Positions 1 through 27,115 of a stretch of DNA of 64,000 nucleotides are shown piece by piece (the first letter of the stretch is position 1; each line of letters begins with the position of its first letter). Made by a program: the position numbers and the translations under genes. Under the pieces are notes generated by a model. It made no database searches and was not told where the DNA came from. It saw only the letters and a list, made by a program, of their open reading frames with translations. The DNA comes from Promineifilum sp. (lineage in GTDB: Bacteria > Chloroflexota > Anaerolineae > Promineifilales > Promineifilaceae): assembly GCA_017983515.1 (NCBI GenBank), contig JAGOBF010000006.1, forward strand, positions 1 to 64,000, in the 5' to 3' direction.

Positions 1-188
1 CGGTAGAGCACCGGGCCGGGGGAATCGAGCCGCAGCAGGACGGCGATGACCAGCAGCAGCGGAGCGATGAGGATTAAGGTCGGCAGAGTCAGGGCATATT
101 CCAGGCCAAGCTTCAGCCAACGGTTCATCCACCCCATGTTGAGGGTGGGCAGTGTATTAACAGTGTTGGTTGCTGGTGCCCGAAACAT
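1..188 (-). CDS. Bacterial sugar transferase, N-terminal part (runs off the window)
   Basis: Only the first 62 codons are inside the window. After a short leader the product has one hydrophobic membrane segment (residues about 25-42), followed directly by RLDSPGPVLYR. That motif is the hallmark start of the polyprenyl-phosphate sugar-1-phosphate transferase family (WbaP/UndPP glycosyltransferases, PF02397). Such enzymes load the first sugar onto undecaprenyl phosphate at the inner membrane face for exopolysaccharide or glycan synthesis. I chose the ATG at 188; a second in-frame ATG lies at 137, close to the membrane segment, and could be the true start. The catalytic part is not visible, so the exact sugar is unknown. 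Its neighbours on the same strand are surface glycoside-hydrolase-fold proteins, which fits a glycan theme. Confidence 0.65.
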   Translation of the reverse strand, partial: MFRAPATNTVNTLPTLNMGWMNRWLKLGLEYALTLPTLILIAPLLLVIAVLLRLDSPGPVLY

Positions 189-310
189 TTCTTATCCCTT
201 GTCCTCGACGCCCGCATGAGCAAGCAGTCCTAATCGCCTAGGGATAGTGTAGAGGGCCTCGCTTACGAAAATCCTTACGGAAAACTAACGGGTTTTTCAC
301 GGCCGTAACG

Positions 311-404
311 CCGGTTTCTTAACCGGCATTCTGCCACGGCCTTGTCGCGTCGTTTTCCTAACCAGTTCCGGCGGGAGATAAGAAGAGGCTGGTTAAGAAA
401 CCGG
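311..404. repeat. Inverted pair of GGTTAAGAAACCGG repeats
   Basis: CCGGTTTCTTAACC at 311-324 is the exact reverse complement of GGTTAAGAAACCGG at 391-404, with 66 bases between. The same 14-mer occurs again at 16791-16804. The pair lies in the gap between the sugar transferase start (188) and the end of the CopD-like gene (409) and may help terminate transcription of the latter. The rest of the gap (189-310) shows no gene. Confidence 0.7.
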
Positions 405-408
405 GGTT

Positions 409-906
409 CTATACGGCCGTGGCAATAGCCGTAAAAAACAGCACCAACATCGCCGCCACCACATTCAGCCGCAGGTAGCGTATCTCACGGGCGGCCAGCT
501 TGTCGCGTTCGGCGGCGGCCGTCTCCGGGTTGGCCTCGGCCAGGAGGGCCAGCCGGCTCATGGCCGGGTAGAGCGCGAATTGCAGCGCCGCCGTCAGCAC
601 GATCATGCCGCCATAGGCCACGTGCTTCAGCAGGATGGCCCAGGCCCACAGGCTATCGACCTGCAGGAAGCCGTTGTAGTTCTCGTCATTGGTCATCTGG
701 ATGAAGCCGGTGATGAGCAGCACGACCAGCGCGGCATTGACCCAGGGCAGAAAACGCTTCTGCAACTGGAGCCACTGGTTGGCCGATAGCGCCCCCTGCC
801 GCAGCGCCGGCCAGGCGATGAAGGCCATCAGGGCAATCCCCCCCAGCCACACGACCGTCGCCAGCAAATGAACCCAATAAGATGCCACAAGTATCCAGAA
901 AGACAT
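409..906 (-). CDS. CopD-like/DUF4149-type integral membrane protein
   Basis: The 165-residue product has about four transmembrane helices. It starts with a pattern (SYWVHLLATVVWLGGIALMA) typical of CopD-like and related heme- or copper-associated membrane proteins: the His in the first helix and the W-x-G-G motif are characteristic. A second conserved His sits in the third helix region (LLKHVAYGGM). There is no soluble domain. The likely role is in copper handling or as a small membrane electron-transfer or assembly partner, but the family is loosely defined. I use the ATG at 906 because AAAGG lies six bases upstream; a GTG two codons earlier (912) is possible. The gene stands alone, with a repeat pair just beyond its stop. 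Confidence 0.6.
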   Translation of the reverse strand: MSFWILVASYWVHLLATVVWLGGIALMAFIAWPALRQGALSANQWLQLQKRFLPWVNAALVVLLITGFIQMTNDENYNGFLQVDSLWAWAILLKHVAYGGMIVLTAALQFALYPAMSRLALLAEANPETAAAERDKLAAREIRYLRLNVVAAMLVLFFTAIATAV

Positions 907-948
907 GGTCACCCTTTTTCTGTCGGTCAGTGGGTCAGCACAACCGGC

Positions 949-2097
949 CTACTGGCCTACCGGCCACTGCTCCGTAGATTCCTTCTCCATCTCTTTGAGC
1001 GCCTCATACGCCGGGCGCGGTGTGCCGTCGGGCAGCACAATCGACCACCACCACTGCTCATCGTCGGGCGTCCACTCCCAATCGGCGATGTAGATCGTCA
1101 CCATCAGCCCCATCCAGGGCTGCCAATTTTTGGCCGCGTACTGGTAGGCCCGCACCAGATAATCGGCCTGCGTCGCCTCGTCCACTCGGTGCCAGGCGTA
1201 GGTGGGGTTCACCTCATCCAGCGTCCAGCCCATCTCCAGGATAGCGACCTGCTTGCGGCCGTCACCGTTAGCCACCATCAGGGCCCGGCTGTCCTCGACG
1301 TGGCGAAAGGCGAACCAGCGCCCGCCGCCATATGCCTCGGCCTCGGCCTCGGCCGGGGATAGCTCCGGCGGGGCCTTATAGCCCGGCGCGTTGACCCCCA
1401 GCACGTCGAAATAGCCGGCCGCGCCCGCGTCGTACATGCCCTGCAGGAACTTCTGGTCGGGCATGGCCTCGGTGCTGTCGGTGCCCGTGGGGGCCAGACC
1501 GGCGGAGATGACAACAGCTTCCGGGTCGGCGGCCTTGATGGCCGTATAACACGCCTTCAGCAGCTCGGTATAGCCGGCCGGATCGGGCGGCCGCAGCCCC
1601 CACTCGCGGTCCAGATTCGGCTCGTTCCACACCTGATAGGCCCCGATACGGCCGCGATAGCGCCCGGCCACCGCGCCGCAGAAGTCGCCGAAATCGGCCG
1701 GGTCGCCTGGCGGCCCATTGTCCTGCCACTGATTATCGAGCGGCTCCGACCAAAACGGCTGGCGGTCGAGCCGCACCAGCAGCTTCAGCCCGGCCTGCTC
1801 CACCTGATCGACGATGTAGTCGGTGCGATACCAGTCAAATTGCCCCTTCTCGATGCCCTCGATCTCGCGCCAGGGGAACTTCTGCTTGACCCAAGTGAAG
1901 CCCATGTCGTTGATGAGACCCAGATCGCGCAGCGCCGTATCCGGCTTCCACCATAGAAAGGCGTGGACGCCGTAGTCGGGCGACGGGAAGGACATCACGA
2001 CCGGCTCGTCGCCCATAAGCGCCGGCTCGTCCGCGCCCGGCGCGCAGCCGGCGAGGAAGAGAGCAAGAAGCGGCAGGAGCAGCAACAGACGGCGCAT
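949..2097 (-). CDS. Surface lipoprotein with clan-A (GH39/GH5-like) glycoside hydrolase fold
   Basis: The 382-residue product begins with a lipoprotein signal (MRRLLLLL...LAGC, lipid Cys at residue 18), so it should be anchored outside the membrane. A TIM-barrel glycosidase domain follows. WNEPN (Glu159) matches the acid/base Glu of clan A, and ILEMGW (Glu288) matches the nucleophile strand. Aromatic residues and conserved Arg/Asp (RLDRQPFW) line the expected cleft. The substrate cannot be told from sequence. It is the smallest of three tandem paralogues (also 2210-3553 and the C-terminal third of 3713-6802), all on the minus strand with gaps of about 110-160 bases, so they may be co-expressed. 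Both catalytic Glu positions are kept, so an active hydrolase is more likely than a binding protein. Confidence 0.75.
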   Translation of the reverse strand: MRRLLLLLPLLALFLAGCAPGADEPALMGDEPVVMSFPSPDYGVHAFLWWKPDTALRDLGLINDMGFTWVKQKFPWREIEGIEKGQFDWYRTDYIVDQVEQAGLKLLVRLDRQPFWSEPLDNQWQDNGPPGDPADFGDFCGAVAGRYRGRIGAYQVWNEPNLDREWGLRPPDPAGYTELLKACYTAIKAADPEAVVISAGLAPTGTDSTEAMPDQKFLQGMYDAGAAGYFDVLGVNAPGYKAPPELSPAEAEAEAYGGGRWFAFRHVEDSRALMVANGDGRKQVAILEMGWTLDEVNPTYAWHRVDEATQADYLVRAYQYAAKNWQPWMGLMVTIYIADWEWTPDDEQWWWSIVLPDGTPRPAYEALKEMEKESTEQWPVGQ

Positions 2098-2209
2098 GGG
2101 GAAGTGGATTCGGTCAGCAGTGGATCAGTGGGCCAGTAGAATGGTAAGAAGTGACAGCATTGCGTCGCTCCTGCCGAGTTCATGACCTACTGACCCACTG
2201 ACCTGTTGT

Positions 2210-3553
2210 CTAGGGGTTCTTCGGCATATCGGCCAGCGCCCCATAGGCCGGCCGCGGGATGCCCTGTGTGTCGATGATGCTATACGGCACGGGGTCATCG
2301 GTCGGGCCGTTGCCCTTGTTGCCAAAGTCGAAGTTGAACAGAAACGCCAGCCAGACGTCGTCGGACTCGTTCATTTGCGTGAACGCCTGGACAATGTAGT
2401 CGGCCTGATCCTGCAACGCATTGTCCTGGGCAAACTCGAAGCCGGGCGGGAATTCCGCGTAACCTTCGGAGCTGGCCCAACCAAACTCGGTCACGCACAG
2501 CTTCTTGTTCGGATCGACGGCCTGCACCTTGTCGGCGTAGGTGTTGAGGGTGCTGTAAAAGCTCCACGAATGGTGCGGGTTATCGAACGGGCCGCGGAAG
2601 GTGGCCGTGGCCGCCTTGGCCGTCGCCCCGGCCGCGTCATAGGCCACATCCGGCCCGATGTTGTAGCCGTTGTGGTGCGCACCCACACAGTCCGCATAGT
2701 CGAGCATCCCCGCCGCCAGGGCGCGATCCAGATATTCGAAATCGTCGGCCCATTGCACCCAGTTGCCCGTGCCCGTCGGCGACAGCGCGCCGCTGATGAC
2801 GATGATATTGGGGTCCTTGGCCTTGATGGCGTCGTGGGCCACCTGCAGGAAGCGCACGTAATCCTCCGGGCTGATGCCATTGGTACTCGTCCATTCGCGG
2901 TCGAGGTTCTCCTCGTTCCACACTTCGATGGCGTCGATCTTGTCCGGATGGCGGTCGATCATTTCGCCCAGGAAGCGCGCGTACTCGTTGTAATCGTCGG
3001 GCGGGCCGTTCTCGCCGCCGGCGGCGCGCGTCCAGGCCGGCGCGCCGACCACGCTGAGCATCAGGCGCAAGCCTTTGTTGTGGGCCTCGTCGATCACAGC
3101 ATCATAGAAGAACCATTGGTCATCGCCGGCCGGATCAGCCTCCACCAGCCACCATTGAATCTGGGCTTTCACCCAGCTCATGCCCAGTTGGTCGTGGACG
3201 GCCGCCATCGTCTCGGCCGGGTTACCCACGGTGGCGTTGCCGTGAATCTGGATGCCATAGCCGAACGAATCTGGTGAAAAGGGGCCACTGACTTCCGGCG
3301 CTTCGGGCGGCGCGGCTTCCAGCGGCGCTTCGCCCTCGGCCACGGCCAGCGTCGGCGTGGGCAGGATTTCGTTGGCGATGACCGGCGGCGGCAACGTGAC
3401 GACGGCCGTCTCGGCCGGTTCGGTGGCCGCGTTCTGCTCCAGCGGCGCGGCCGGCTCCGGAGCAGCCTCTTGGCCGCCGCAGGCGACCAGCGCCGCCAGC
3501 AACACGATGAGAGCAACCATCAACCAGGGAATCATTTTGGGATGTCGCTGCAT
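2210..3553 (-). CDS. Surface lipoprotein with clan-A glycoside hydrolase fold, second paralogue
   Basis: The 447-residue product has a lipoprotein signal (LAALVAC, lipid Cys at residue 25), then an acidic, Pro/Ala-rich linker (about residues 28-90), and then a TIM-barrel glycosidase domain. The acid/base motif is WNEEN (Glu214) and the nucleophile motif is CVTEFGW (Glu356). The start is the ATG at 3553, with AAGGAG six bases upstream; an open frame extends further up but lacks a ribosome site. It is clearly homologous to the 949-2097 protein and to the C-terminus of the 3713-6802 protein (shared W-N-E-x-N-[LI]-[DE]-R-E-W). Palindromic repeats lie in the 159-base gap upstream. The likely role is extracellular polysaccharide cleavage or remodelling; substrate unknown. 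Confidence 0.75.
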   Translation of the reverse strand: MQRHPKMIPWLMVALIVLLAALVACGGQEAAPEPAAPLEQNAATEPAETAVVTLPPPVIANEILPTPTLAVAEGEAPLEAAPPEAPEVSGPFSPDSFGYGIQIHGNATVGNPAETMAAVHDQLGMSWVKAQIQWWLVEADPAGDDQWFFYDAVIDEAHNKGLRLMLSVVGAPAWTRAAGGENGPPDDYNEYARFLGEMIDRHPDKIDAIEVWNEENLDREWTSTNGISPEDYVRFLQVAHDAIKAKDPNIIVISGALSPTGTGNWVQWADDFEYLDRALAAGMLDYADCVGAHHNGYNIGPDVAYDAAGATAKAATATFRGPFDNPHHSWSFYSTLNTYADKVQAVDPNKKLCVTEFGWASSEGYAEFPPGFEFAQDNALQDQADYIVQAFTQMNESDDVWLAFLFNFDFGNKGNGPTDDPVPYSIIDTQGIPRPAYGALADMPKNP

Positions 3554-3617
3554 TGGTACTCCTTTTCCATCTGGCGTGGGGCGGTTACAAAGGGCCACCC
3601 CTACATGGGTAATTGCT

Positions 3618-3646
3618 TGTGGGGCGGGTTTAGAACCCGCCCCACA
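3618..3646. repeat. Palindromic GGGGCGGGTT-type repeat
   Basis: TGTGGGGCGGGTT is followed at once by its near-complement AACCCGCCCCACA, giving a near-perfect hairpin with almost no loop. It belongs to the same sequence family as 3685-3707 and as the copy inside the metal ATPase gene at 39805-39836. Confidence 0.8.
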
Positions 3647-3684
3647 GGGATGTTGATAGCAAGGATGGATATCAAAGATGGAAA

Positions 3685-3707
3685 GGGCGGGTTAGAAACC
3701 CGCCCCT
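3685..3707. repeat. Palindromic GGGCGGGTT-type repeat after the 3713-6802 gene
   Basis: GGGCGGGTT and AACCCGCCC pair across a very short loop. The hairpin lies 6 bases past the stop codon of the minus-strand gene ending at 3713, so it may act as its terminator although no T-run follows. Confidence 0.7.
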
Positions 3708-3712
3708 GCCCA

Positions 3713-6700
3713 TTAATTACCCATCGCCTGTCGCAGCGTCTCGCAGGCCGGGCAGCTGCCATTGGGCCGAATCATCGCGTAGCCGGCCTGCGGGTCGTCG
3801 CCGAACGTCTTGAAGTCGACGTTGAAGACGATGATCATGCGCACGCGGCCGCTCTGGACGCCGACGCGGACCGCCTCGGCCAGGTACTGGGCGTGTTCGG
3901 CCACAGTCAGGTTATAGGGCGCTCGCCACAGGAAGCCGGCCGGCAGCGAGCCCCATTCCTCGCCGCTCAGATAGCCCAGCTCGGTGAAGCACAGTGCCCC
4001 CGCCCCGGCGCTCGTGTAGGCATTGATCATGCCCTGGAAGTAGCGGGTGTAGTGGCCGCCCGCACCGCGCGGGTCGCCGCTGGTGGCGCTCGGCGGCATC
4101 AGGCCCTCATTGTAGTGGACGCCGATGCAATCCGAAGCGCTGCCCGCTCCGGCGGCCATCATGCCCGCGACATAGGGCGCGTCGTCGCAGCCCGCGCCGC
4201 TGCACCCGCCAAAGAAGCCGGTGGGCGCGGGCGCGCCGGTAATGACCATAACGTTGGAATTGGCGGCCTTGATCTTCTGGTAGGCCGGCCGCAGCATATT
4301 ATTCACGTACGACGTCGGGTCGATCTGGCCAATAGGCCATTCGCGCTCGATGTTCATCTCGTTCCAGACCTCGATAGCGTCCGGCCCCAGCGCGGCCACG
4401 CCGCCCAGGAAGTTGGTGTAAGCCTCGAAGTCGATGCTGCTGGGATAGAGCTGGCCGGGAATGCTGAGCAAGATCTTCATCCCCGAGCCATGCGCCTCGG
4501 CGATTAGCCCGGCCACGGCATCCGGCGAGTCGCCAGGCCCCCACTTGTGCTGCTTCTTCACCCACTTCATGCCCGCGTACTGCATCGTGCCCGAGGGCAT
4601 ACCGGCGGCCTGGCCGCCCAGCTCGAAGTTGCCCACGTTGCCCACCGCGGCCACGGGTGGCGGGGCTACAACCGGGGCGGCCGCCGCGCCGCTGCCCGGC
4701 GTGCCGCCCGCTGCCGCTGCCGGCGGCGGGGCCTCGACAACCGGCAGGCCGGCGGTGCTGAAGCCGGCGTTGACCGAAACCAGCTCGCCCAAAATCCAGC
4801 CCTCGTTGCCATTGGGCAGAGTGATGTTATACCAGTTGCCCGAGTCGTTGCGGCCAATGAGCTTGATTACCGTGCCCGCGCCCGCGCCGCCGGCAATTGT
4901 CCCGTAGGCGATGCCGGGGCCGGTGCGCACGTTGGCCGGGGAGTTGACTACGGCTGTGGCGTCGCCGGGCGCGCCGAGGTTAGCGGTGGGGGCCGGGGCG
5001 GCCGGTTGGACGCCCGTGCCGCCGGTGGGCGGCGTGGTGGCCGCTGCTTCGGGGGTGTCCGTCGGTGCTTCGGCCACTTCCGGCGCGCCGACGATCACTT
5101 CTATCTGGCCCAGATCGGCCGTGGCCTCGCCCAGTACCAGATCGGCTTCCACCACGTAGGTGCCGGGGTTTTCGGCTGCGGTCCAGGAGTAGTCCAGATC
5201 GCTGCCCGTCTCGCTGGCGATGACGCTGTCGTTGGCGTCGCGCACCGTCCAGGCGATGGCCGCGCCGCCGGGCTGGGGCGCGTCGCCCTGACCCAGATAG
5301 TTATTCAGCGCCGCGGCATAGGCCGGCCCGCTGCCCAGCGCCAGCCCGCGTACCGTCACGCCGCGCAGGTTGTAGTCGGCCGCCAGTTGCAGACGGTTGA
5401 CCAGCGCTGCCTCGCTGACCAGCCAGACCGTCTGTTCCTGCCCGGCCTGCTCGAAGGTATATTTGTAGGCCAGCGCGTTGCCGTCCCATTCCAGGGGCGT
5501 GGCTGAGCCTTCGAGAACCACGTCGACGGCCGCGCCGGGATCGACCTCAACCGCGCCGCCGGCCACGGCCAGCTGGCCCAGATGGGCCAGCGCTTGCTCC
5601 GCCGGCAACTCGGTGTAGGTGTCGCCGACGCGGTTAATGGCCCCGGCGGTCAGCAGCAGGTTGACCTTGCTGCGGTCGATCTGGCCCACGGTCCAGGCCA
5701 CCAGCCGCTCGGCCGGGCCATTTTCGACGTAGGACGTCGGATCGAGCGGCATCTGGACGTGGACGATGTCGGCCGCGCGGCCCACGGCGGCCCAGTTCTG
5801 GCCGCCCGTGTCCCAACCGTTGCCGATGGGGGCCGGCGTGCCCAGCGTGATCGCCAGCTGCAGTCCGTCGGCGTGCAGCGCATCGGCCAGCCGCGTCACC
5901 ACATCGGTGAAGGCGGCCGACATCGGGCCGGGAATACCCTGGTAGTCGAGGTGGACGCCGCTATACCCCTCGGCTTCGGCCTGTCCAACCAGGCTGCTGA
6001 TCTGGGCATCCTGCAGGGCGGTGTCATTGAGGAACGTGGTGATAGCTGCCTGATCGGTGACCGCGCCGCGGTTGGTGACGCGTAGAAAGACGGCCGCCCC
6101 TTCCGGCGCGGTGGCCACCTCGCCCGACAGACTGCCGCTCTCGTCGAGCACCAGCGCCCCGGCCGATACTTCGTCCAACAGGGCGCTCACGTCGTCGGGC
6201 GCACTCGCGTCCGGCGCGAGTTCGACGCCGATGATCGGCTGCGCGTTGGGGCTGGTGCGAACGAGCACCAGCGCTTGGGGCAGCGTGCCCTCGACGGCCG
6301 TCACCTGTCCGGCGTCGGCGTCGATCAGACCGGGCACATGGGCCCAGGTGCTGCCGTCCCAGCCGCGCAGGTCGATGTCGGCGACGTCGCTGCCGGCCAG
6401 CTCGTCCGGTAGCGGTACGGCGATCTGCCCGGTGGGCGCGTCGCCGCTGAAGCTGAGGACGTAGGCATCGCCGACGGCCGACCCGGCGGGCAGCGCGGCG
6501 GCGGCCGCGGCCAGAGCGCCCCCGGCGGTCGTGCCCAACTCGGCGGCGGCCATGCGGCTGACGCCGACGGGCGCGCCGTCACTCGTCGTCAGGCTGACGC
6601 CTTCCGGCAGTTCGGCCGAGATGGCGGCCGTCGCCTCGGCCGTGGCGCCGGCCGTTTCCTGTCCCCCACCCAGCCCCAGCCGTGTGCCCAAAGAGATGGG

Positions 6701-22289: not shown

Positions 22290-23270
22290 TCAGATCAACA
22301 CGCTCAGCAGATCGTCGGCGGTCATATTGACGAAATAATCACCCACGGCGAACGGGGCCAGCCGCCGCCGCAGTTCCTCCTGGCGATGGGGCGCGCCGTC
22401 CAGAGCGACGGCCAGCTCGGTCGGGTCGCGACGGGTGAAATAGTCGCCGTAGAAATGCGCCGAGCGGATCACGCCTTCATCAACTTCGAGCGCGGCCTCG
22501 ATGGTGCCGCCGGGGGTGCGCATCCGCTTGCTGAAGTTATAGCGCGGTGAATAGCCGTAATTCCATTCCCAGGTGACGTACTTGGCATCACGCAGTCTGG
22601 TGATGGCCGCGCGGTCGTCGTCGGTGAAGGTATAACGTTCGGCGTCCGGCGTAGCGGTCATGACGTTGTCCAGGAGGCGATCGCGAAATTGCAGCACCGT
22701 CATCGGCCGGGGCAGATGCTCGCTGATGTTGGTCACCCGGCCGCGCACCGACTTGACCGCCTTGTCGGCGAACTTGGCCGGGTCGGGACGCAGCGCCGCG
22801 GCCACGTCCGACATCTGCGCCGAGAACAGCAAGGTGCCGTGATGGAGGATGCGGCCGCGGCGAATGTACTCGGCGTTGCCGGAGAACTTGCGGCCGTCGA
22901 TAGTCAGATCGTTGCGCCCCTCAAATTGGGCGTCGACGCCCAAGCCCTGCAGCGTATCCAGGATCGGTTGGGTGAAGCGCCGGAAATCGAGGCCGGTGTT
23001 GTGGTCGCCCCGGGCTACAAAGGTGAAGTTGAGGTTGCCGAGGTCGTGGAAAACCGCGCCCCCGCCGGACATCCGACGCACGACGGGGATATTATGTTCG
23101 CGCACGTACTCGGCATTGATCTCGGCCAGCGTGTTCTGGTGGCGGCCGACAATGACGGCCGGAGCGTTGCGCCATAGCATGAAGCAGTCGCGGTCGAAGT
23201 GTTGCATGACGTACTCTTCGGCCGCCAGATTGAAGTAGGGGTCAGTCTCGTCTCGGATAATGCACAGCAT
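22290..23270 (-). CDS. lplA: Lipoate-protein ligase A
   Basis: The 326-residue product has the LplA signature: NLAAEEYV near the N-terminus, the lipoate/AMP-binding RRMSGGGAVFHDLGNLNF, and the Lys-containing DGRKFSGNAEY followed by HHGTLLFS. The C-terminal accessory domain (about 240-326) is present, as in E. coli LplA. It attaches exogenous lipoate to the E2 or H proteins of 2-oxoacid dehydrogenases and the glycine cleavage system. The start is an ATG preceded by an AGG-containing stretch. It is divergent from the heliorhodopsin gene, with a 215-base gap that must hold promoters for both. Confidence 0.92.
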   Translation of the reverse strand: MLCIIRDETDPYFNLAAEEYVMQHFDRDCFMLWRNAPAVIVGRHQNTLAEINAEYVREHNIPVVRRMSGGGAVFHDLGNLNFTFVARGDHNTGLDFRRFTQPILDTLQGLGVDAQFEGRNDLTIDGRKFSGNAEYIRRGRILHHGTLLFSAQMSDVAAALRPDPAKFADKAVKSVRGRVTNISEHLPRPMTVLQFRDRLLDNVMTATPDAERYTFTDDDRAAITRLRDAKYVTWEWNYGYSPRYNFSKRMRTPGGTIEAALEVDEGVIRSAHFYGDYFTRRDPTELAVALDGAPHRQEELRRRLAPFAVGDYFVNMTADDLLSVLI

Positions 23271-23485
23271 AATACCTCTCGGCTACAATTTTGGATGATA
23301 GCCGCGAGCGCGCCAAATGGCACGTGATCCGTGACCCCGGGCGAAATTCGCGGGTCAACTTCCAAGCCGTTGACAACTCCTCGGACCAGTTTTGGGCAAT
23401 ATAGTGCATTCGCGCCCATTGTCATAGAAAATTAGATTGGCTGACGCAGCTGTCGCCAAGAAATGCCTATTTACAGGAGAGCCAC

Positions 23486-24292
23486 ATGTCCAAGAGCAAA
23501 GTTACACCAACCCACACAAGTGCCGAAATGGAAAAGAAGTTCGCCGGGCTTCGCCGTTTCAACCTGATCATGGGATTTCTGCACCTCGTGCAGGGCATCC
23601 TCATGATCGTCGTCAGCAACGACACAACCTATCCGATCTTCACCAACTACCTGAATTTCGATCCCGCCACCTTCGCGCTGACGCCCAACTCGCAATTATT
23701 TTACGAGTTGCGCTTTGGGCCGGCGGTGGCCGCCTTTTTGCTGATCTCGGCCGTGGCCCATTTTTACCTGGGGACCATCGGTTACTCGCGCTATGTAGCG
23801 AACTTGAAGAAGGGGATGAACCCCATCCGTTTCTATGAGTACGCTCTAAGCTCCTCGCTAATGATCGTCCTCATCGGCATGCTGATCGGCCTGTGGGATC
23901 TGGGCGCCATCATCCTGATCTTCACCCTGAACGCGATGATGAACTTGTTCGGCATCATGATGGAACTGCACAACCAGCACACAAAGCGCACGGATTGGAC
24001 GGCCTTCATCTATGGCTGCATCGCCGGGATCGTGCCCTGGATTGTCATCATGCTCTACTTTGTGGGCGCGGTGAATTCCGGCGACGCCAAGCCGCCAGCC
24101 TTCGTGTACGCTATCGTGCCAACTCTGTTCGTCTTCTTCAACATCTTCGCCATCAATATGGTGTTGCAATACAAAAAGGTTGGCCCCTGGAAAGATTACT
24201 TGTTCGGCGAGCGAGTCTACATCATCCTCAGCCTGGCGGCTAAGACCGTACTGGCCTGGTTAATCTTCACCGGCACGCTCGCGCCTGTTTGA
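23486..24292 (+). CDS. Heliorhodopsin
   Basis: The 268-residue product has seven membrane helices and the full set of heliorhodopsin landmarks. The retinal Schiff-base Lys is Lys253 in helix 7 (SLAAKTVLAW, counterpart of Lys241 in HeR-48C12). The counterion is Glu118 in RFYEYALSSSLM (Glu107 counterpart), and the two buried His residues near the Schiff base are His33 (FLHLVQG) and His92 (AHFYLG). The long A-B loop (about residues 44-72) and the GVNSGDAKPPAFVYAI-type helix E-F region fit the family. Heliorhodopsins sit inverted in the membrane (N-terminus inside), have a slow photocycle and no known ion pumping; a sensory or regulatory role is suspected. No carotenoid cleavage (retinal synthesis) gene is nearby. 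A ribosome site (AGGAG) precedes the ATG by 5-8 bases. Confidence 0.95.
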   Translation: MSKSKVTPTHTSAEMEKKFAGLRRFNLIMGFLHLVQGILMIVVSNDTTYPIFTNYLNFDPATFALTPNSQLFYELRFGPAVAAFLLISAVAHFYLGTIGYSRYVANLKKGMNPIRFYEYALSSSLMIVLIGMLIGLWDLGAIILIFTLNAMMNLFGIMMELHNQHTKRTDWTAFIYGCIAGIVPWIVIMLYFVGAVNSGDAKPPAFVYAIVPTLFVFFNIFAINMVLQYKKVGPWKDYLFGERVYIILSLAAKTVLAWLIFTGTLAPV

Positions 24293-24430
24293 TGAAGCGG
24301 TTGAGCTGTTGACTTGGCGAGTGGGTGGGTGGCTTGGGGTGGAAACGGGCCGCCGATACCGCCTATCCACTGCGCCAATCTCTGTGACCAATTGGGGTCA
24401 ACGTGATGCGGCGGAGTCCCGTGCCTATGA

Positions 24431-24436
24431 TATAAT
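24431..24436 (+). promoter_or_regulatory. -10 box ahead of the CBS-ACT gene
   Basis: TATAAT at 24431-24436 in the context TGATATAATG, 116 bases before the next ATG. The -35 is not clear. Confidence 0.45.
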
Positions 24437-24552
24437 GAGCGCGTGGCTGAACAAGCGACCACGAGCCTTAGGGTCGCCGGCACATAGTTAAATCAAGAGA
24501 TGGGTCACGACCTGCTCTTCATAATCATCTCTCCCATCATCAGGAGGTTCCC

Positions 24553-25203
24553 ATGCTTGTCCGCGAACTCATGACTCCCAACCCCATCACTGTCCGGCCC
24601 GATACGCCGGTGCCCGACGCCCTGCACCTGATGCGCGAGCGCAAGGTGCGCCGCCTGCCGGTCGTCGACGCCCACGGCCGCCTCGTCGGCATCGTCTCCG
24701 ACAAGGACCTGCTCTATGCCTCACCCTCCCCGGCCACCACGCTGGCCGTCTGGGAGATCCCCGAACTGCTGGCCAAGCTCAAGGTCGAGAAGGTGATGGC
24801 CCGCGACGTCATCACCGTGTCCGAAAAGACGCCGCTGGAAGAAGCGGCGCGCATCATGGCCGACCGGAAGATCGGCGGCCTGCCCGTCATGCAAGGGCCG
24901 GACCTGGTCGGCATCATCACCGAGACGGACCTGTTCAAGAGCTTGCTGGAGCTGCTTGGCGGCCGGCGGTCGGGCGTGCGCATCGCCGTGGCCGTGCCTG
25001 CCGTCAAGGGCGCGCTGTCGAAGATCACGACGGCCATCTTTGATGCCGGCGGCGACATCGTTGGCCTGGGGATGAAGGGTATCCTGGGGTCCTATGGCGA
25101 TACGGCCGAGGTAGTGCTGAAGGTGCGAGACGTGGAGCGCGAGGCGCTGATAGCAGCGCTCAAGCCGGTCGTCACCGAAGTACTCGACGTGCGCGAAGTA
25201 TAG
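24553..25203 (+). CDS. CBS-pair protein with ACT-like C-terminus (AcuB-like)
   Basis: The 216-residue product has two CBS motifs (residues about 1-60 and 78-135, each with MTP/ITV ... RKVRRLPVVD and RKIGGLPVMQG patterns). A C-terminal ACT-like domain follows (about 142-216; RIAVAVPAVKGALSKITTAI ... EVVLKVRD). CBS pairs bind adenosine nucleotides and ACT domains bind amino acids, so this is probably a cytosolic ligand sensor. The CBS-CBS-ACT order matches AcuB-type proteins. The ribosome site AGGAGG sits six bases before the ATG. It is followed 22 bases later by the YdeI-like gene. Confidence 0.8.
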   Translation: MLVRELMTPNPITVRPDTPVPDALHLMRERKVRRLPVVDAHGRLVGIVSDKDLLYASPSPATTLAVWEIPELLAKLKVEKVMARDVITVSEKTPLEEAARIMADRKIGGLPVMQGPDLVGIITETDLFKSLLELLGGRRSGVRIAVAVPAVKGALSKITTAIFDAGGDIVGLGMKGILGSYGDTAEVVLKVRDVEREALIAALKPVVTEVLDVREV

Positions 25204-26230: not shown

Positions 26231-26584
26231 ATGGCGCGAACGCCCACGACCTCAGACGCATTTAACGCCGTCGCCGAGCCGCAGCGACGCCGGATCATCG
26301 ACCTGCTGGCCCACAGCGAGCTGCCGGTCAACGACATCGCCGCGGCGCTGAAGATGCGCCAGCCGCAGGTGTCGAAACACCTGAAGGTATTGCGCGAGGT
26401 TGGCCTCGTGCGCGCGCGCGAAGACGGCCGGCAGCGGCTCTATAGCTTGAACAGCGAAGCCCTGCGGCCGATCTACGAGTGGGTCAGTCCCTATGAGCGG
26501 GCCTGGCGCGAGAGCTTCGAGCGTTTGGATGAACTGCTGGAAGAGATGAAGGCCGAGCCAACCGGGGACAGCCCCGGATCGTAA
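26231..26584 (+). CDS. ArsR-family winged-helix transcriptional repressor
   Basis: The 117-residue product is a compact winged helix: AVAEPQRRRIIDLLAHSELPVNDIAAAL, then the recognition helix QPQVSKHLKVLREVGLV, then the wing REDGRQRLYSL. There is no metal-binding Cys motif, so it belongs to the SRPBCC-linked ArsR group rather than metal sensors. The palindrome inside its own promoter implies autorepression. It is followed after about 60 bases by an AHSA1-type gene and then a DUF1579-type gene, the usual ArsR-AHSA1 arrangement. The inducing signal is unknown. Confidence 0.92.
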   Translation: MARTPTTSDAFNAVAEPQRRRIIDLLAHSELPVNDIAAALKMRQPQVSKHLKVLREVGLVRAREDGRQRLYSLNSEALRPIYEWVSPYERAWRESFERLDELLEEMKAEPTGDSPGS

Positions 26585-26644
26585 CCGGGTTTATGAGCAT
26601 GGGGCCACACGAATAGCCCCACAATCCACTGAAGGAGAAAGATC

Positions 26645-27115
26645 GTGTCAAAACTTACTGTCGTCGCTGAACCGGGAAAACAAGAGGTTATTCTGACGCG
26701 CGAATTCAATGCGCCGCGCGAACTGGTATTCAAGGCTTACACCGACCCAGTGCTTGTGGCCCGCTGGTGGGGCACGAGCAGTAGCACGACCTCCATCGAC
26801 AATCTGGAAGCGCGGCCGGGCGGCCAGTGGCGCTTCGTCGAACGCGACCCCGAAGGAAATGAATTCGCCTTCCACGGCGTTTACCACGACCTCGTCGCGC
26901 CGGAGCGGATCGTGCAAACCTTCGAGTATGAGGGAATGCCGGGCCACGTTCTGCTCGAAACGGTGACCTTTGAAGACCTCGGCGGCAGGACGAAAGTTGT
27001 CGGCCGCTCGGTCTTCCAGTCGGTGGAAGATCGCGATGGAATGGTGGCCGCGGGCATGGAATTTGGCGCGGAAGAAGGCAACCTGGCATTGGACGAACTG
27101 CTGGCTACGCTATAA
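26645..27115 (+). CDS. AHSA1/SRPBCC-domain protein
   Basis: The 156-residue product is an AHSA1-type START-like fold: ILTREFNAPRELVFKAYTDP, LVARWWG, ARPGGQWRFVERDPEGNEFAFHGVYHD, and the C-terminal helix GMEFGAEEGNLALDELL. These proteins have a hydrophobic cavity for small ligands; the exact role is unknown. The start is a GTG at 26645 with AAGGAG seven bases upstream. It is downstream of and probably regulated by the ArsR repressor. Confidence 0.9.
   Translation: MSKLTVVAEPGKQEVILTREFNAPRELVFKAYTDPVLVARWWGTSSSTTSIDNLEARPGGQWRFVERDPEGNEFAFHGVYHDLVAPERIVQTFEYEGMPGHVLLETVTFEDLGGRTKVVGRSVFQSVEDRDGMVAAGMEFGAEEGNLALDELLATL

Follow-up and report, generated by a model that had tools for sequence, protein, structure and literature searches.

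We have analyzed a window of 64,000 nucleotides from a Promineifilum sp. contig (JAGOBF010000006.1), and find that it contains what, judged by its sequence, is an intact heliorhodopsin (HeR) gene, a well-supported addition to the known family and an ordinary member of it. The HeRs are membrane proteins that sense light and bind retinal, the aldehyde of vitamin A. It is very probable that the gene is selectively maintained and that it encodes a photosensor with a regulatory role rather than an ion pump, with retinal that is most likely taken up. Our analysis bears on the gene itself, its residues, the fold, the topology signature, purifying selection, the variability of the locus and the absence of known cleavage enzymes; the photocycle, signaling and uptake are carried over from HeRs studied elsewhere.

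The open reading frame runs on the forward strand from an ATG at 23486 to a TGA stop at 24290-24292 (helR, 23486-24292), and encodes a complete protein of 268 amino acids that was identified by profile, structure and alignment evidence. The Pfam profile PF18761 is matched from end to end (positions 1-242 of 242) with 341.6 bits (cut-off 26.7; E = 2.9e-102), and the NCBIfam equivalog NF038020 ("heliorhodopsin HeR") with 377 bits (cut-off 100). The family match is far above chance. On searching the PDB, the top match was TaHeR (6is6; E = 4e-78), and 48C12 was matched with E = 1e-59.

Sixteen functional positions were chosen from the structural literature (PMC9726877, PMC9448325). In an alignment of the three proteins all sixteen (N26, H33, Q36, S88, H92, Y103, R115, E118, Y119, S122, E160, Q228, E242, S249, K253 and W258) are identical in the window HeR, TaHeR and 48C12. 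The SxxxK motif of TM7 reads S249-L-A-A-K253 (24230-24244, forward strand, as are the codons that follow). S249 corresponds to S237 of 48C12, and K253, the retinal-binding residue, to K241 of 48C12 and K238 of TaHeR; this Schiff-base lysine is invariant across 19 aligned HeRs. TM3 carries the single glutamate counterion of the Schiff base, E118 (23837-23839; E107 in 48C12, E108 in TaHeR). The buried histidine pair is also present, comprising H33 (23582-23584; H23 in both 48C12 and TaHeR) and H92 (23759-23761; H80 in 48C12, H82 in TaHeR), together with the polar network of N26, Q36, S88, Y103, R115, S122, E160, E242 and W258. An earlier note on this DNA had named Lys253, Glu118, His33 and His92 as landmark residues and had proposed alignment with 48C12 and TaHeR. 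All four residues are confirmed at the correct coordinates, and Lys253 and Glu118 fall in the Schiff base and counterion columns. Its description of a complete, functional-looking photoreceptor agrees with the intact reading frame, the profiles and the residues, as far as these can indicate function.

Comparison with characterized proteins places the window HeR among well-studied relatives. The HeR of Bellilinea caldifistulae (BcHeR, L085) comes from the same phylum, is 81% identical and has all key residues, but it belongs to another family and has a different gene neighborhood. Laboratory work has been published for BcHeR (its photochemical characterization is Shibukawa 2019, PMID 31150215, as cited in PMC7807009), in contrast to the window HeR. 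TaHeR is 51% identical but archaeal, and the window HeR is about ten residues longer at the N terminus. 48C12 (6su3) is 46% identical, but is actinobacterial and stands in another gene context.

An AlphaFold2 model of the window HeR was built with 18 relatives (pLDDT 82). It predicts seven helices, a long A-B loop (residues 48-76) that would form strands, and a helix in the B-C region (residues 100-108); such a loop and helix have been described as particular to HeRs (PMC9385722). The model overlays on TaHeR with Z = 31.3 and an rmsd of 1.8 Å over 250 residues, whereas Z is only about 21 for the predicted structure against type-1 rhodopsins. Lysine and arginine residues cluster at the N terminus and in the B-C, D-E and F-G loops; the A-B region and the E-F loop have a single one each, and the final ten residues have none. 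Because of this distribution an N-inside, C-outside orientation is predicted, and the loop charges fit the inverted topology of the HeRs.

Where might the retinal come from? The assembly containing the window (26 contigs totaling 2.81 Mb, with a completeness of 68.6%) was searched as a whole, as the earlier note had suggested. Neither Blh (PF15461) nor RPE65 (PF03055) was found in it, although the third of the genome that is missing could still hold a Blh gene; the earlier statement that no retinal-synthesis gene lies near the HeR is borne out. We extended the search to a set of 148 genomes, comprising the window's own and 147 relatives, 22 of which carry HeR, the window's own included. Neither Blh nor RPE65 was found in 21 of these 22 carriers. 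Since 11 of the 22 reach a completeness of at least 90% and show little contamination, incompleteness alone is unlikely to be the reason. Across the set Blh gave one full match, confirmed by TIGR03753, in a genome lacking HeR, together with a fragment in G014 that stays below the cut-off, and RPE65 was found in seven genomes, among which only G014 has HeR. Because Blh is rare in the whole group, its absence from the HeR carriers does not amount to a statistical anti-association.

The genome does contain a carotenoid cluster on another contig (C10, L036:5416-10191), in the order crtB-crtI-P450-lycopene cyclase. The four products are identified as a phytoene synthase, a desaturase of the CrtI family, a P450 and a lycopene cyclase with two domains; the last of these matches TIGR03462 with 134.7 bits (cut-off 39.4). 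The P450 matches many P450s with similar scores, plant carotene hydroxylases among them, leaving its substrate undecided. From these genes the bacterium probably makes beta-carotene or a related carotenoid, and the missing step would therefore be cleavage to retinal. The earlier proposal, that import or synthesis encoded elsewhere in the genome must provide the retinal, is thus sharpened: a beta-carotene-type cluster does exist elsewhere, but no known cleavage enzyme was found.

The chromophore could be made in the cell if beta-carotene from this cluster were cut by an enzyme whose gene is missing from the assembly or whose family is unrecognized. The four genes in a row speak for this, as does the same type of cluster joined to the HeR itself in a Chloroflexota MAG (L069, below). 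We nevertheless regard synthesis in the cell as rather unlikely, given the single full Blh gene in 148 genomes (beside the G014 fragment), which is in a genome without HeR, and the coincidence of RPE65 with HeR in one genome of seven. Moreover, the TIGR03462-type cyclase was not found in 11 of the 22 carriers, in a search that covered that cyclase type only, and phytoene synthase was not found in 6 of them. It is a more speculative idea, and one we would put forward only tentatively, that the HeR carriers of this lineage as a whole obtain their chromophore without Blh or RPE65, either by an unrecognized cleavage enzyme acting on the products of the crtB-crtI-P450-cyclase cluster or by binding a hydroxylated carotenoid directly. 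HeR carriers repeatedly have a beta-carotene-type cluster but no known enzyme to cleave its product, which makes the source of retinal a concrete and testable question. For TaHeR, whose host also lacks the pathway, uptake of exogenous retinal through a lateral opening (fenestration) has been proposed (PMC9385722), and uptake appears to be the simplest and best reading for the window HeR.

Type-1 rhodopsins were found above the cut-off in three genomes (G011, G014 and G109), and the window's genome gave no PF01036 match that would indicate a second rhodopsin. G014, a member of the same family, brings together HeR, a type-1 rhodopsin, RPE65 and the Blh-like fragment below the cut-off (L025, L137, L048).

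We also examined the setting of the gene. The HeR lies between a divergent gene for lipoate-protein ligase (LplA, TIGR00545; 22290-23270, reverse strand) and a gene for a protein with two CBS domains (24553-25203, forward strand), each of which also occurs in relatives without HeR. The earlier note had placed the HeR alone between a lipoate ligase and a CBS-ACT gene; both neighbors stand, but Pfam gave only the CBS pair and the ACT part was unconfirmed. None of the known partner genes (glutamine synthetase, photolyase, DUF2177, ABC transporter, MerR and others) shares an operon with the window HeR, the neighbors being LplA and CBS.

Within the genus the lplA-CBS site holds HeR in three members, is empty in one and contains a different gene in one. 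The order is LplA, HeR, CBS in the window and LplA, HeR, APH-like kinase, CBS in G006, while in G007 the HeR is split over two contig ends with LplA on one and CBS on the other. G004 has LplA, APH-like kinase, CBS, and in G003 LplA and CBS adjoin with about 210 bp between them, both without HeR. CBS and LplA are far apart in G001, which lacks HeR, and G005 keeps CBS without any HeR. No HeR remnants were found in the gaps of G003 and G004, that of G004 being filled by the unrelated APH-like gene. The conclusion that emerges is that the HeR is an accessory gene carried at the intergenic site between lplA and CBS. Since this site is variable within the genus, the flanking LplA and CBS genes are not evidence of a partner or function for the HeR.

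Could the HeR nonetheless act as a functional unit with the CBS protein or the lipoate ligase? HeR and CBS are on one strand, 260 bp apart, and at least two members of the genus (the window and G006) have the HeR between LplA and CBS, with the G007 HeR adjoining each on separate contigs. Yet LplA and CBS are side by side without HeR in G003, the kinase takes the place of the HeR in G004 and separates it from CBS in G006, and CBS is retained without HeR in G001, G004 and G005. Upstream of the CBS gene there is a 36-nt stretch with a TATAAT-like hexamer (24402-24437, forward strand) that is 81% similar to the same place in G004; its similarity in a genome that has no HeR suggests that the CBS gene may have its own promoter. 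Outside the genus, clustering of flanking genes placed the LplA/CBS pair as immediate neighbors at no HeR locus. A functional unit of this kind is thus very unlikely. One genus with occupied, empty and replaced versions of a single site points to HeR as a gene of gain and loss, and warns against inferring partners from isolated neighbors.

A shared promoter upstream of the HeR in the three genus members was considered and rejected, the alignment being weak. The only sigma-70-like match on the coding strand (23261-23289) is some 200 bp upstream of the gene and hardly stands out from the shuffle background, and terminator-like matches lie within the HeR gene. Further along the window, at 26231-27115, reading of the open reading frames suggests an ArsR-like regulator followed by an AHSA1/SRPBCC-like protein.

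The earlier note had called partner and role unknown for the whole family, but this no longer holds, as partners have been published for some HeRs, namely glutamine synthetase (PMC9529153), photolyase (PMC9769723) and an ABC transporter (PMC11109279). Published HeR neighbors further include carotenoid genes, photolyase, MerR and DUF2177 (PMC8612252, PMC11109279). In L069 (positions 6-6465) HeR, CrtB, P450 and lycopene cyclase form a run that is divergent from CrtI and a B12-binding MerR regulator. Its HeR is 82% identical to that of the window, while the carotenoid proteins compare with those of the window's genome at 50% (P450), 55% (CrtB), 44% (cyclase) and 30% (CrtI) identity. On this gene arrangement the L069 cluster is a candidate light-controlled carotenoid-HeR unit, and a search for function would be better started there than at the window. 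L064 encodes a photolyase-related protein, DUF2177 and HeR in succession, and the phytoene synthase genes of L037 and L038 are no more than about 2.5 kb from the HeR. A protein read from its sequence as DegV-like adjoins the HeR in four sequences of one clade, a neighbor reported earlier for other HeRs (PMC9385722).

The window's own HeR copy stands outside any light-stress operon and its neighbors differ among genus members, so its role is carried over from relatives. Because the HeRs of close relatives are found in operons with carotenoid and B12-MerR genes and with photolyase and DUF2177, the window HeR is likely to be a sensor of light or photo-oxidative stress. For its photocycle, signaling and retinal uptake we infer the following course from HeRs that have been studied. 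The chromophore, most likely retinal from outside, would enter by the membrane-facing opening known in HeRs and become bound to Lys253 as a protonated Schiff base, Glu118 being the single counterion. Green light would isomerize the retinal, and a proton would pass through Glu118, Ser88 and His92/His33. The cytoplasm-facing polar network (N26, Y103, E242, R115 and E160) and W258 would then rearrange, altering the cytoplasmic loops slowly enough for a signal, which would most likely feed a response to light or photo-oxidative stress.

A viral HeR that transports protons is known, and the paper describing it names E191 as the hallmark of ion-transporting HeRs (PMC9448325). The V2HeR3 group is recognized by glutamate at the E191 position and tryptophan at W195, in TM6 (PMC9448325). 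The window HeR resembles V2HeR3 in family, counterion and one proton-accepting position, and E242 and Q228 match positions in the proton-accepting group of V2HeR3, but these are common to non-transporting HeRs. The gate residues E191 and W195 are replaced by L214 and F218, as in HeRs that do not transport, and proton transport is therefore unlikely on the sequence; we give hardly any credence to a light-gated proton transporter of the coccolithovirus type.

The gene has been under purifying selection. By the method of Nei and Gojobori, dN/dS was 0.07 against the G006 copy (91% amino acid identity) and 0.03 to 0.08 in all pairs that could be estimated, with synonymous sites close to saturation in the more distant pairs. 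Least credible of all would be a decaying or non-functional relic, since for all its patchy presence in genus and family (22 of 148 genomes) the frame is open, every key residue is kept and dN/dS remains in that low range. A recent foreign origin was rejected: the GC3 of the HeR gene (0.80) resembles that of neighboring genes, although the HeR tree departs from the family.

Most relatives live without HeR, and so the gene is non-essential. Scanning genome contigs for relatives of the HeR yielded 273, the best 80 of the 273 being mostly from Anaerolineae and other Chloroflexota with 69-91% identity. The window protein and the G006 HeR are sisters in a maximum-likelihood tree (100/94), in which HeRs of the same family are interspersed with those from other families and many of the shallow forks are weak. 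This scatter and the presence in 22 of 148 genomes fit repeated gain and loss.

HeR was also found in 12 of 39 genomes of the Trueperaceae (Deinococcota; loci L096-L098, L101, L103, L104, L115 and L120), forming one clade (100/100) inside the Chloroflexota HeRs. The outer-membrane marker Omp85 is present in three HeR-bearing Trueperaceae genomes (G148-G150) and was not found in Bellilinea, the window's genome (G000) or G006. Among the papers searched none names HeR and Trueperaceae together, and the occurrence of HeR in this diderm family may matter more than the window gene itself. Three MAGs labeled Spirochaetota (L091, L105 and L126), in which mis-binned contigs are possible, carry HeRs 67-76% identical to that of the window, and all three genomes contain Omp85.
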